A stretch of DNA of 64,000 nucleotides. It comes from Oscillospiraceae bacterium. GTDB lineage: Bacteria > Bacillota > Clostridia > Oscillospirales > Acutalibacteraceae. A program made the translations under genes and the position numbers. Under the pieces are notes generated by a model. That model was not told the origin of the DNA, searched no databases, and saw nothing but the letters and a program-made list of their open reading frames with translations. This document shows positions 6,653-50,100 of the stretch, piece by piece (positions within the stretch are counted from its first letter, which is position 1; every line of letters starts with the position of its first letter). The stretch covers positions 17,402 to 81,401 of the forward strand of contig JAIRPV010000004.1 in assembly GCA_031256825.1 (NCBI GenBank), in the 5' to 3' direction.

Positions 6653-6998
6653 GGGGCTTTGTTCGCGATTCCGAAATTTCGGATTTTCATAAAAAGCCCC
6701 TCCGGGGAGGCCCTTTTTCCTGTCTGCCATTCCGAAATTTCGAACTATCATAAAAATGCGCGCGGCTCCGGGGGCTTTGTTCGCGATTCCGAAATTTCGG
6801 ATTCTCATAAAAAGCCCCTCCGGGGAGGCCCTTTTTCCTGTCCGCCATTCCGAAATTCCGAACTATCATAAAAACGCGCGCGGCTCCGGTGGCTTTGTTC
6901 GTGATTCCGAAATTTCGGATTTTCATAAAAAGCCCCTCCGGGGAGGCCCTTTTTCCTGTCCGCCATTCCGAAATTTCGAACTATCGTAAAAACGCGCG
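6653..6998. repeat. Three tandem copies of a 118-bp repeat (third copy truncated) with terminator-like hairpins and CCGAAATTTCGG palindromes
   Basis: gttcgcgattccgaaatttcgg starts at 6661, 6779 and 6897 (period 118). Confidence 0.95.
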
Positions 6999-7013
6999 CA
7001 ATCGCAAAATCGC

Positions 7014-32690: not shown

Positions 32691-33284
32691 TCAGTGGCTG
32701 TATTTCCCCATCGCCTCTTCCATTTTTCCGGCCAGAATGAGGGCGGCGGCCCCGCAGGCGTCGTCTGCGGCCCGGCGCAGCGCCAGCAGCTCTTCCTTCG
32801 GCATATCGCCCAGAACCCAGTCGATCAGGCCGCCATCCGGTTGGGGGGCCTGCCCCACGCCCAGCTTGATGCGCGGAAATTCCTGAGAACCCAGGCAGCG
32901 AATCACGCTCTTGATTCCGTTGTGCCCCCCGGCGCTGCCGCCGCGCCGAATGCGCACCGTGCCGGGCCGCAGCGCGATATCGTCAAAAATGACCAGCACG
33001 CATTCCGGCGGAATGCGGTAAAAATTGGCGCACGCGGCGATCGCCTCGCCGCTGCGGTTCATATATGTATTGGGTTTCATCAAGACGCAGCGCTGGCCGC
33101 CCAGTTCCGTCAGGCCAATCAGCGCGTGGAATTTGAGCTTGTCCGTCTTGCAGCGGCATTCGGCCGCCAGGGCATCCAGGCACAAAAAGCCCGCGTTGTG
33201 CCGGCTGATTTCGTATTGCCTGCCCGGGTTCCCCAGGCCCGCGACAATCCACTGCGGCGGCCCCGGCTTATGAAATAAACTCAT
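32691..33284 (-). CDS. pth: Peptidyl-tRNA hydrolase
   Basis: VAGLGNPGRQYEISRHNAGF; GGSAGGHNGIKSVI; start at 33284. Confidence 0.93.
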   Translation of the reverse strand: MSLFHKPGPPQWIVAGLGNPGRQYEISRHNAGFLCLDALAAECRCKTDKLKFHALIGLTELGGQRCVLMKPNTYMNRSGEAIAACANFYRIPPECVLVIFDDIALRPGTVRIRRGGSAGGHNGIKSVIRCLGSQEFPRIKLGVGQAPQPDGGLIDWVLGDMPKEELLALRRAADDACGAAALILAGKMEEAMGKYSH

Positions 33285-33955
33285 CGCTGTCCCCTGCCCT
33301 CTTTGTTGACCTGCCGCGCCCGCGCGACGGCGAACCCCCCCGCGGGCACGTCTTCGGTGATGACCGATCCCGCGGCGGTATAGGCCCCCGGGCCGACGCT
33401 CACCGGCGCGACCAGGCTGTTGTGGCAGCCGATGAACGCGCCGTCGCCAACCTGGGCGCGGTGTTTTTGTTTGCCGTCGTAGTTCGCCACCGCCAGGCCG
33501 CAGCCCACGTTGATCGCTTTGCCGAAATCCGCGTCGCCAATATAACTCAGGTGCGCAATCTTTGTCGCGTCGCCGATGTTCGCGTTCTTTAGCTCCACAA
33601 AATTGCCAATGCGCAGCCGCTGCCCCAATTTTGTGCCCGGCCGCAGCCGCACCCAGGGGCCAATCTCGCAATCCGCGCCAATTTCGGCCCCTTCGCTTTG
33701 CACATTGTTGAGAACGGCCCGGCTGCCCACCGTTGTATCGCACAGCACGCTGTTTGGCCCAATCACACAATGTTCTCCGATCACGGTGTTGCCGCAGAGA
33801 ATGCTCCCCGGCAAAATGAGCGTCCCCGCGCCGACTTGCACCCCCCCGGTAACGACGACCCCGTCCGCGCAGGGGATGCGCACCCCCGCCGCACGCAGGG
33901 CGGCCAGCGCCGCCGCGCGGTCTTTTTCTTCCATCGCAAACTGCGACGCATCCAT
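33281..33955 (-). CDS. Stand-alone left-handed beta-helix acyltransferase resembling the GlmU C-terminal domain
   Basis: IGPWVRLRPGTKLGQRLRIGNFVELKNANIGDATKIAHLSYIGDADFGKAINVGCGLAVANYDGKQKH; no uridyltransferase domain. Confidence 0.8.
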   Translation of the reverse strand: MDASQFAMEEKDRAAALAALRAAGVRIPCADGVVVTGGVQVGAGTLILPGSILCGNTVIGEHCVIGPNSVLCDTTVGSRAVLNNVQSEGAEIGADCEIGPWVRLRPGTKLGQRLRIGNFVELKNANIGDATKIAHLSYIGDADFGKAINVGCGLAVANYDGKQKHRAQVGDGAFIGCHNSLVAPVSVGPGAYTAAGSVITEDVPAGGFAVARARQVNKEGRGQR

Positions 33956-34050
33956 GGGTTTGGCCCTCCTCCGATACTGCCTACTACCTATTATGCCATA
34001 AAAGCTATGAAAATGCAAGAAATTTCTCTGTACAAACGCTCAAAATTATG

Positions 34051-34218
34051 TTATAATAAGCACAAGGCCTGTGGCGAGGGATGATTTTGCGAAGCAGTTG
34101 CCAATGACGAACCGCTCACCGCAGGTGTGTTATAATAAGCACAAGGCCTGTGGCGAGGGATGATTTTGCGAAGCAGTTGCCAATGACGAACCGCTCACCG
34201 CAGGTGTGTTATAATAAG
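34051..34218 (+). repeat. 79-bp tandem repeat, 2 identical copies plus a partial third, each with an extended -10 and a long hairpin
   Basis: ttataataag at 34051, 34130 and 34209 (period 79). Confidence 0.95.
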
Positions 34219-34258
34219 CGCAGCTTTCCGTATTCCGCATTGATAAAGGGGAACCGCT

Positions 34259-35671
34259 ATGCAAATCACAAGCCTCACCGCCCTTGCGCTGGCCGCAAAG
34301 CTGCATTCCGGCGAATGCTCCGTGGCGGAGGCGCTCGACGCGCACTACGCCGCCATTGAGCAAAGCGAATGCAACTGCTACACCTCCCTTTGCAAAGAGG
34401 AGGCCTATGCGCGGGCGGAAGAAATCCAGCGGCGGCTGAACCGGGGCGAACGTCTGTCGCCCCTGGCGGGCGTGCCCGTTGCCGTAAAGGATCTCATCTG
34501 CACAAAGGGCGCGCGCACCACTTGCGCCTCGCGCATGCTCCGGGATTTCATCCCGCCATACGATGCGACCGTTACAGAAAAGTTGAACGCCGCCGATCTG
34601 ATCATTCTGGGCAAAACCAACATGGATGAGTTCGCCATGGGCTCGACCACGGAGACATCCTGCTTTGGCCCCACAAAAAACCCGAAGAATCCCGCGCATG
34701 TGCCCGGCGGTTCCTCGGGCGGCAGCGCCGCTGCCGTGGCGGCGCACGAAGCCCCGGTTGCCCTGGGCAGCGACACAGGCGGTTCTATCCGCCAGCCCGC
34801 GGCCTACTGCGGCTGCGTTGGGCTGAAGCCAACATATGGCGCGGTTTCGCGCTACGGGCTGATCGCCTACGCTTCCTCGCTGGATCAGATTGGCCCCATG
34901 GCGCGCACCACAGCCGACTGCGCCGCGCTGTTCGATCTCATCAAAGGCAAGGATCCGCGCGACTCCACTTCTGTGGAAAACCCCGGCAAGCCAGCGCGGC
35001 CGATACAGGGGTTGCGCGTCGGCGTCCCATACGAGTTTTTCGGCGAAGGGCTTCAGCCGGAAACCGCCGGGGCCGTGCTTGCCGCGAAAGAAAAACTGGC
35101 GGAGCTGGGCGCTGTTGTGGAGGATTTGCACCTGCCCGCGTCGGAATACGCCGTGCCGACGTACTACATCATTGCCTGCGCCGAAGCCTGCTCCAATCTG
35201 TCGCGCTACGACGGCGTAAAATATGGGCACAGCAGCCCCGAAGCCGTCAACCTGCGCGGCACCTATATCAAATCCCGCAGCGAAGGCTTTGGGTTGGAGG
35301 TCAAGCGCCGCATTATGCTCGGCAATTTTGTGCTCAGCTCCGGCTATTTCGACGCCTATTATAAAAAGGCCCTGCAAGCCAGGCGGCTGATTCAGCAAGC
35401 CTATTTTAAAGCTTTCGAGCGCTGCGACGTTATTCTTGGCCCCGTTGCCCCAACCACCGCCCCAAAGCTCGGCGAAAGCCTCGACGACCCGCTGAAGATG
35501 TATTTAAGCGATATCTATACCGTCACCGTGAACATCGCGGGCCTGCCCGCGCTTTCGCTGCCCTGCGGAACAGACGCGGAGGGTCTGCCCATTGGCATGC
35601 AGCTGATTGGGCGGCCCTTTGAGGAGGCAACGCTGCTGGGCGCGGGGGGAGCGTTCGAAGAAGCGCAATAA
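34259..35671 (+). CDS. gatA: Asp-tRNA(Asn)/Glu-tRNA(Gln) amidotransferase subunit A (amidase signature)
   Basis: VAVKDLICTKGARTTCASRML; GGSSGGSAAAVAA; GSDTGGSIRQPA. Confidence 0.92.
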   Translation: MQITSLTALALAAKLHSGECSVAEALDAHYAAIEQSECNCYTSLCKEEAYARAEEIQRRLNRGERLSPLAGVPVAVKDLICTKGARTTCASRMLRDFIPPYDATVTEKLNAADLIILGKTNMDEFAMGSTTETSCFGPTKNPKNPAHVPGGSSGGSAAAVAAHEAPVALGSDTGGSIRQPAAYCGCVGLKPTYGAVSRYGLIAYASSLDQIGPMARTTADCAALFDLIKGKDPRDSTSVENPGKPARPIQGLRVGVPYEFFGEGLQPETAGAVLAAKEKLAELGAVVEDLHLPASEYAVPTYYIIACAEACSNLSRYDGVKYGHSSPEAVNLRGTYIKSRSEGFGLEVKRRIMLGNFVLSSGYFDAYYKKALQARRLIQQAYFKAFERCDVILGPVAPTTAPKLGESLDDPLKMYLSDIYTVTVNIAGLPALSLPCGTDAEGLPIGMQLIGRPFEEATLLGAGGAFEEAQ

Positions 35672-48716: not shown

Positions 48717-49057
48717 GGAGTAGGGATTAGGAAGTAGGAATTAGGGAAGCGTATCCCCTACTCCCTACTCCCTAATTCCTATCTCGTCCCTGTCTCCTGC
48801 TCCCTACTCCCTAATTCCTATCTCGTCCCTGCCTCCTGCTCCCTACTCCCTAATTCCTATCTCGTCCCTGCCTCCTACTTCCTGCTCCCTAATTCCTATC
48901 TCGTCCCTATCTCCTACTTCCTAATCCCTACTTCCTATCGGCCCCTATCCCTGCCTCCTACTTCCTGCTCCCTAATTCCTATCTCGTCCCTACTTCCTAA
49001 TCCCTAATTCCTATCGGCCCCTGTTCCTGCCTCCTGCCTCCTGATCCCTGCCTCCTG
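48670..49057. repeat. CCCTA/TAGGG-type low-complexity island bounded by a ~68-bp near-perfect inverted repeat
   Basis: Left arm caggaggcagggatcaggaggcaggaagcaggaacaggggccgataggg... (48670-~48740); right arm is its reverse complement (~48987-49057). Confidence 0.92.
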
Positions 49058-50100
49058 ATAAGTCCGCCGCCCAGCACATATTCCCCGTCATAGAGCACAA
49101 CGGCCTGCCCGGGCGTAATGGCTCGCTGGGGTTCGTCGAACAAAATGCGCAAGCTGCACTCCCCCGTCTGCTCCGCCGTAGCCCACTGCTCCGGCTGCCG
49201 GTAGCGGATTTTTACTTTGCACCGGGTGGGCCGCGCCAACTGATCCACGGCAATCAGGTTGATATCGTGCGCCGTCAGCTCCCGGGCATACAGCAGATCT
49301 TCGTCCCCCACAACAACCGTGTTGCTCTCCGGCCGCACCGCGCAAACATAGCCCGGCCGGGGCAAGGCCAGCCCCAGCCCCTTCCGCTGCCCCAGCGTGT
49401 AGCGCGCCGCGCCCCTGTGCCGCCCCAGCACATGCCCATCCGGATCGACGAACGCGCCGGTTTTCAGCGGCTGGCCCAAATAGCGCTCAATAAACGCGCC
49501 GTAGTCGCCGTCCGGCACAAAGCAAATGTCCTGGCTGTCGCGTTTGTGCGCGTTGAGCAGCCCCCGCGTTTCCGCCAGCGCGCGCGTTTGCGCCTTTGTC
49601 ATATCCCCCAGCGGAAAATGCGTGTGCGCCAGCTGCCCCTGCGTCAGCGCGTAGAGCACATAGCTCTGGTCTTTGTTCGCGTCCGCCCCGCGCCGCAGCT
49701 GCCACCGGCCGTCGAATTCCCGCCGGACATAGTGCCCCGTGGCAATCCCGTCGTATTCCAGCGTTCGCGCCCGCTCCAGCAGCGCGCTGAATTTGATGTA
49801 TTTGTTGCAGTCAATGCAGGGGTTCGGCGTTTCGCCTTTCAGGTACCCCTCAACAAACCGGCGGATCACCGCATCCTCAAATTGGCGCGTGAAAGAAAAC
49901 ACATAAAACGGCAGCCCCAGCTTTTGCGCGGCGGCGCGCGCGTCCTCCGCGTCCGCCAGCGAACAGCACGTGCGCGATCCCGGCGCAAGGGCGTCCGCGC
50001 CCGCGAACAATTTTAAATGCACGCCCGCGCAGGCGTGCCCCTGTTCCGCCAGCAGCGCCGCCGCCGCCGCGCTGTCCACCCCGCCGGACATTGCAACCAT
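48997..50100 (-). CDS. mnmA: tRNA-specific 2-thiouridylase MnmA
   Basis: MVAMSGGVDSAAAAALL; NPCIDCNKYIKF; GATGHYVRR-like IATGHYVRR; C-terminal tail encoded by repeat. Confidence 0.95.
   Translation of the reverse strand: MVAMSGGVDSAAAAALLAEQGHACAGVHLKLFAGADALAPGSRTCCSLADAEDARAAAQKLGLPFYVFSFTRQFEDAVIRRFVEGYLKGETPNPCIDCNKYIKFSALLERARTLEYDGIATGHYVRREFDGRWQLRRGADANKDQSYVLYALTQGQLAHTHFPLGDMTKAQTRALAETRGLLNAHKRDSQDICFVPDGDYGAFIERYLGQPLKTGAFVDPDGHVLGRHRGAARYTLGQRKGLGLALPRPGYVCAVRPESNTVVVGDEDLLYARELTAHDINLIAVDQLARPTRCKVKIRYRQPEQWATAEQTGECSLRILFDEPQRAITPGQAVVLYDGEYVLGGGLIRRQGSGGRRQEQGPIGIRD

Follow-up and report, generated by a model that had tools for sequence, protein, structure and literature searches.

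Why does the gatA gene of a gut bacterium of the Oscillospiraceae stand behind a perfect tandem repeat that places an extended -10 box in every unit? The window, by which we mean the whole stretch of 64,000 nucleotides that was analysed, is contig sequence from a draft genome of 2.05 Mb, and assembly could alter the copy number of identical tandem units. Tandem Repeats Finder gives a period of 79 bp, 2.2 copies and 100% matches for positions 34049-34219 of the window, between a divergent gene (33281-34018) and gatA. Reading the sequence itself, we find two identical 79-bp units and then a third TGTTATAAT, behind which AAGCGCAGC may be what is left of a truncated third unit (Table 1). An earlier, sequence-only reading of this locus had described the two units and the start of a third, the -35-like TGTACA with its 17-bp spacer, gatA as the downstream gene and a distance of ~45 bp from the last TATAAT to the gatA ATG. 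All of this is borne out, the distance being 43 bp when counted from the end of the box. Its three TATAAT boxes are likewise present, each starting one base later than it had placed them, and the TG that it reported in front of the second and third precedes the first as well (TGT-TATAAT), making all three extended. The TGTACA promoter is the sole sigma-70-type match in 33900-34400 (1 found versus 0.6 expected). The gene has its own promoter and no gatC before it, and in several relatives a gatC-like gene precedes gatA.

Table 1. Positions of the promoter, the repeat units and related arrays in the window.
Feature	Position	Strand	Basis or remark
-35-like hexamer TGTACA, native promoter P1	34029..34034	+	17-bp spacer to first TATAAT
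Extended -10 box, copy 1, TGTTATAAT, native P1	34049..34057	+	Sequence; TATAAT from 34052
Probable inserted element, unit 1, ~70 bp, AAGCACAAGGCC...CTCACCGCAGGTG	34058..34127	+	Sequence, Tandem Repeats Finder, BLAST
Extended -10 box, copy 2, TGTTATAAT, candidate P2, without -35	34128..34136	+	TATAAT from 34131
Probable inserted element, unit 2, identical to unit 1	34137..34206	+	Sequence, Tandem Repeats Finder, BLAST
Extended -10 box, copy 3, TGTTATAAT, candidate P3, then AAGCGCAGC	34207..34215	+	TATAAT from 34210
gatA, downstream gene with its own promoter	34259..35671	+	TIGR00132, E 2.5e-182
Second array of the family, TGGTATAAT at 63883 and ~63962	63883..64000	+	Unit 2 cut by contig end
217-bp tandem composite	58751..59194	+	Degenerate unit-like segments fused to TTCGGAATTTCGGAAT palindromic segment

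A BLAST search with one unit returned 61 matches on many contigs of the window genome, and a sequence-only model of the unit gave 89 hits. Arrays were read from the DNA around the copies only (~444 kb, from which the promoter counts below are also taken), and ~55 arrays of one to several units were found, with >50 scattered copies. Given 61 matches and ~55 arrays, the copy number is far beyond chance. The genes downstream of the arrays are unrelated: gatA, yebC, tpiA, ruvC, trmD, uvrA and apgM (phosphoglycerate mutase), as well as genes for methylenetetrahydrofolate reductase (MTHFR), a lacZ-like beta-galactosidase, a ClpB/C-like ATPase, a pyruvate-formate-lyase-activating-like radical SAM protein and type III pantothenate kinase. 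All arrays found have a single orientation and face their gene, with the ribosome-binding site and start codon usually 30-60 nt past the last unit. The unit is a member of a dispersed and apparently mobile family that sits at -10 boxes genome-wide, which the earlier reading had missed. Its motif GACGAAC-GCTCACCGCAGGTG is well conserved among units. Many arrays end in a right-truncated unit and some units are internally deleted, as would be expected if the leader tolerates such losses while P1 is kept. Neighbouring units in the window genome range from 100% identity down to 67%; in several arrays they are 96-100% alike, in some only 67-73%.

Nearly all arrays are placed exactly with respect to the promoter. 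A left-complete first unit is present in 55 of them. In 45 of these 55, a spacer of exactly 17 bp separates the first TATAAT from the best -35 hexamer upstream of it; the first box is TATAAT in 47 (with near variants in the rest), and the N is preceded by TG in 54 and by CG in one. A -35 with at least 4 of 6 matching positions accompanies 32/55 first boxes versus 0/43 later boxes, which are often eroded. The TG is present in 27/27 element-bearing promoters versus 31/59 element-free promoters of the same DNA (Fisher p=2.5e-6), the latter set being biased toward the ~444 kb around copies. This enrichment, together with the placement, identifies the extended -10 box as the insertion site.

In the window genome, the -35 regions to the left of the arrays are unrelated between loci, and N and the box variant are locus-specific. 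Near-identical cores (94-97%) occur at different loci with differing N, for example at L052 and L056 (97%), which makes the promoter a property of the locus and the core a property of the family. Putative mobile promoters are promoter elements that occur in many copies before unrelated genes, and the present family is like them in that respect; the difference is that here the -35 and everything upstream are native to each locus, and only the segment behind the -10 is mobile. A whole promoter cassette copied between loci by gene conversion would account for units that carry -10 boxes, and in some loci of another genome, G137, the left flank is repeated too. However, no identical whole promoter is shared between loci of the window genome, where left flanks and N differ, and this flank comparison already counts against such copying, to which we attach very little probability.

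The box itself occurs twice per insertion, the 9 bp YGNTATAAT flanking the inserted ~70 bp at either end. All four bases occur as N among the loci, and in 20 of the 22 arrays with an intact right end the left N equals the right N, where shuffling gives a mean of 6.8 and at most 16 in 20,000 shufflings. The other two pairs mismatch, as do some pairs in G003 and G006, and the right-hand box is mostly degraded in G012. Non-consensus boxes are likewise common to both sides, namely TACAAT (L051) and TAAAAT (L055) in the window genome and TAAAAT (L117) and CGTTATACT (L121) in G004. At single-unit loci, the right-hand box is joined to the locus's own leader. Since the base right after the left box follows the element type and not the locus, we infer that the duplication spans 9 bp, YGNTATAAT. 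The matched N on both sides resembles a target-site duplication.

Orthologous promoters without the element exist in related species. The tpiA promoters of G002, G003, G004, G008 and G012 have a -35 and YGNTATAAT without an insert; G004, which matches the Oscillospiraceae metagenome assembly WQWM01000001, reads TTGACA...TGTTATAATAGAAAG where the window genome reads TTGCAA...TGTTATAAT, the unit and then TGTTATAT. At the yebC promoter, G010 looks empty and G012 has a different insert behind the same box, and this gene is only partly useful as an empty-site test. We set gatA aside for this comparison, as in relatives it follows gatC or other genes and has no comparable promoter. The five species with an empty tpiA promoter are of the same genus as the window genome. 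The empty sites come from other species, at ~70-85% protein identity, with no clean recent insertion among them, and the tpiA and yebC sites show the ancestral layout, not a fresh insertion.

These comparisons bear on the simplest account of the gatA repeat, in which slippage or unequal crossing-over duplicated the gatA promoter locally and the stack was selected for dose, with no mobile element at all. The identity of the units in the window, and the arrays whose units are 96-100% alike, are as this account would have them, and local duplication probably does contribute to array growth. It meets, however, ~55 loci before unrelated genes, single-unit loci whose right box is joined to their own leader, orthologous promoters that are empty, and different elements at one box: one promoter of G004, at L123, has a type A element and a type B element in tandem, with boxes TGGTATAAT, TGGTATAAT and TGGTATACT. 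Slippage alone cannot yield L123 or the dissimilar neighbours of other arrays; both can result from repeated insertion, local duplication acting in addition. As a full account, local duplication is already largely refuted, and we give it hardly any credence.

On the computational evidence (dispersal, exact -10 placement, a duplicated box, orthologous promoters that are empty, and different elements stacked at one box), we consider it very likely that the gatA repeat consists of two stacked copies of a short, dispersed mobile element, which is non-autonomous, inserts always in the same direction right behind the -10 of YGNTATAAT promoters and duplicates 9 bp. The element would have been inserted by a recombinase or transposase recognising the extended -10. 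This putative enzyme would recognise YGNTATAAT, insert the element just behind it and copy the box, so that the host promoter P1 (-35, 17 bp, TGNTATAAT) would stay intact at the left of the insert. The right copy of the box would become a second, -35-less extended -10 (TGTGNTATAAT), formed partly from the element's terminal GTG; placed before the copied TG, this GTG would give GTGTGNTATAAT, a good extended -10 for a candidate second start. Because each insertion would recreate the target, further copies could stack in tandem, and because P1 is left intact, insertion is probably near-neutral. Some findings sit less comfortably with a mobile element. A symmetric transposon would not usually give arrays of one orientation only, the left end varies by type and the terminal inverted repeats are not perfect. 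At some G137 loci a longer left flank is repeated as well.

The earlier proposal of stacked promoters holds as a layout, with an extended -10 in every unit and a -35 at 17 bp for the first, and by their sequences stacked promoters are plausible in structure at gatA and at dozens of other genes. P2 and P3 may be able to start transcription. Most expression is nevertheless probably carried by native P1 and not set by copy number, since a -35 is retained by the first -10 alone and erosion of the later boxes is frequent. Caution is also called for with tandem -10 boxes in these genomes, which may have arisen as footprints of insertion and not as promoter stacks under selection. An element that occupies the leaders of numerous housekeeping genes and spares P1 would explain dozens of copies in a 2-Mb genome, and it provides natural promoter variants with 0, 1, 2 and 3 units across genes and species.

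The other earlier proposal, a tandem small-RNA gene, finds no such backing. An Rfam scan of the window gave no match, the fold z-scores of the unit are weak (-0.8 to -2.1), only 1/9 predicted pairs of the consensus fold has any compensatory change, and a scan of 33900-34400 found no terminator-like site inside the units; the unit does not look like a structured or small-RNA gene. The same results weigh on the broader possibility that the unit is a conserved RNA or DNA module (a riboregulator, an operator or a small RNA) that defines a regulon and was spread by recombination. Such a regulatory leader would fit the invariable co-directionality with the gene, the position inside the leader and the conservation of GACGAAC-GCTCACCGCAGGTG. 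Yet, besides the lack of an Rfam family and covariation that is near nil, units are frequently truncated or internally deleted, the genes are unrelated housekeeping genes, and the leaders of related species are empty or different, which makes a regulatory module improbable.

Returning to insertion of a mobile element behind the -10 box, we searched for an enzyme that could move it. The Y1/RAYT transposase profile (PF01797) had no match in G000 (the window genome), G003, G012 or G228, reverse transcriptase (PF00078) had none in G000, G004, G006 or G012, and DDE_Tnp_1 was present in G000 as a single fragment only. None of RAYT, DDE_Tnp_1 and reverse transcriptase has a distribution that follows that of the element. 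No mobilising enzyme was found among the Y1, DDE_Tnp_1 and reverse transcriptase profiles in the window genome, nor an autonomous parent transposon among its strict right-end matches. The terminal inverted repeats are gapped as well as imperfect (CACA-n-CCTGTGGCGAG / CTCACCGCAGGTGTG; left TGTGGCGAG, right complement TGCGGTGAG), and type A does not have the same left end as type B. By the profiles above, the window genome has neither the RAYT gene that accompanies REPIN or REP sequences nor the reverse transcriptase of a retroelement-derived, target-primed repeat.

Bacterial MITEs (Correia/NEMIS, RUP and ERIC-like) are short, non-coding, intergenic elements with a direct duplication at their flanks, some of them with promoter parts. 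In these terms, the family qualifies by its length (~70 bp), non-coding nature, multiple dispersed copies (~55 arrays, unrelated loci) and target-site duplication, with YGNTATAAT on both sides and empty sites elsewhere. It could be read as an ordinary, symmetric MITE with terminal inverted repeats and little target preference, its -10 placement and orientation being due to selection for survivors that recreate a promoter. The imperfect inverted ends, the 9-bp duplication and the short, non-coding sequence agree with this. However, insertions in leaders, terminators and other intergenic DNA should be tolerable, yet full-length copies in the window genome begin at the -10 box, and TG is found in nearly all of the promoters concerned versus about half of the element-free ones. 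We regard this reading as unlikely. The family is like MITEs, including the enterobacterial RU elements, which are MITE-type repeats (PMC2759123), in being short, non-coding and dispersed, with a direct duplication at the flanks. It is unlike MITEs in that its target is the extended -10 box and the duplication is that 9-bp box, as well as in its one orientation, tandem stacking, weak terminal inverted repeats and the absence of a parent transposon from the strict right-end search. With REPIN populations (PMC8049555) and REP sequences it has in common dispersed short repeats that contain palindromes, and in other genera a portion of the family takes the form of a terminator-like hairpin near tRNA genes (CACCTGCGGTG...CACCGCAGGTG); the family differs in that the window genome has no Y1/RAYT gene, the target box is duplicated and copies are placed at promoters. 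The duplication of CRISPR repeats by integrases offers an analogy only: there too a short target is duplicated per insertion, growth is box-insert-box and polarity is fixed, but the inserts here are copies of one family and not diverse spacers.

Small dispersed repeats are common, but we know of none that uses an extended -10 box as a duplicated insertion target. The full-text literature yielded no description of an element that uses and duplicates this box, which is weak evidence as most subscription papers lie outside such a search. The insertion target is apparently without a precedent that we could find, and the original promoter is left in place. We tentatively suggest that there is a class of mobile elements in the Oscillospiraceae whose machinery reads the extended -10 itself (as DNA, sigma-bound or as open promoter), in fixed orientation, and copies the 9-bp box; such elements would spread over promoters while leaving them intact and accumulate in arrays. 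A recombinase reading TGNTATAAT is a concrete search target.

Other species and genera have related elements at their -10 boxes, with other interiors and the same right end, GCTCACCGCAGGTG. With up to 2 mismatches allowed, the right-end motif GAACTGCTCACCGCAGGTG occurs in 39/251 family genomes and 33/136 genera, the reversed control giving zero. Box-element-box arrays with other interiors are present at L184 (G228), L203 and L204 (G137), L215 and L216 (G203), L176 (G222) and L070 (G091). G137 has 63 sites at which right end and -10 box are joined; among 397 genomes of an order-level sample, this joined pattern occurs only in G137 and the window genome (reversed control, 0 in all 397). In viral contigs there was no -10-joined right end, and 16 looser matches were each single. 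Several loci of G137 (L203, L206, L234 and L242) have the same longer stretch of left flank before the box, AATACTCTGTCGCGGTGGCGGGCTGGTCAGGGATA, and some of the copies in this genome may be mobile as a larger unit.

The window itself holds further repeats. The 217-bp composite (Table 1) consists of long relatives of the element. A 118-bp tandem repeat at 6653-6999 combines CCGAAATTTCGGA palindromes with GGGGCTTTTTATGATAG stretches, and its palindromic segment is the middle of the element's long relatives (217-300 bp). Degenerate CCTACTCCCTAATTCCTATC tandem arrays with periods of 7, 39 and 78 bp lie at 48757-49059, and CCTACTACCTA strings akin to them are found near other promoters (e.g., ~33985).

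In other genera, the right-end motif forms one arm of a hairpin that looks like a terminator, found beside tRNA genes but also at other places. At L185, L187, L188, L199 and L209, the hairpin is CACCTGCGGTG...CACCGCAGGT and the opposite strand bears a T run, so that it resembles a dispersed intrinsic terminator near tRNA genes. At L153 and L156 of G012, the element's last 22 bp, GCGAACTGCYCACCGCAGGTGC, are themselves tandemly amplified. Finally, at L140 (G012:C232, ~1398), an element-like leader runs straight into a tRNA-Gly-like gene, the 5' end of which (GCAGGTGTAG) resembles the right end of the element (GCAGGTGTG), a likeness that is a possible clue to the origin of this end.
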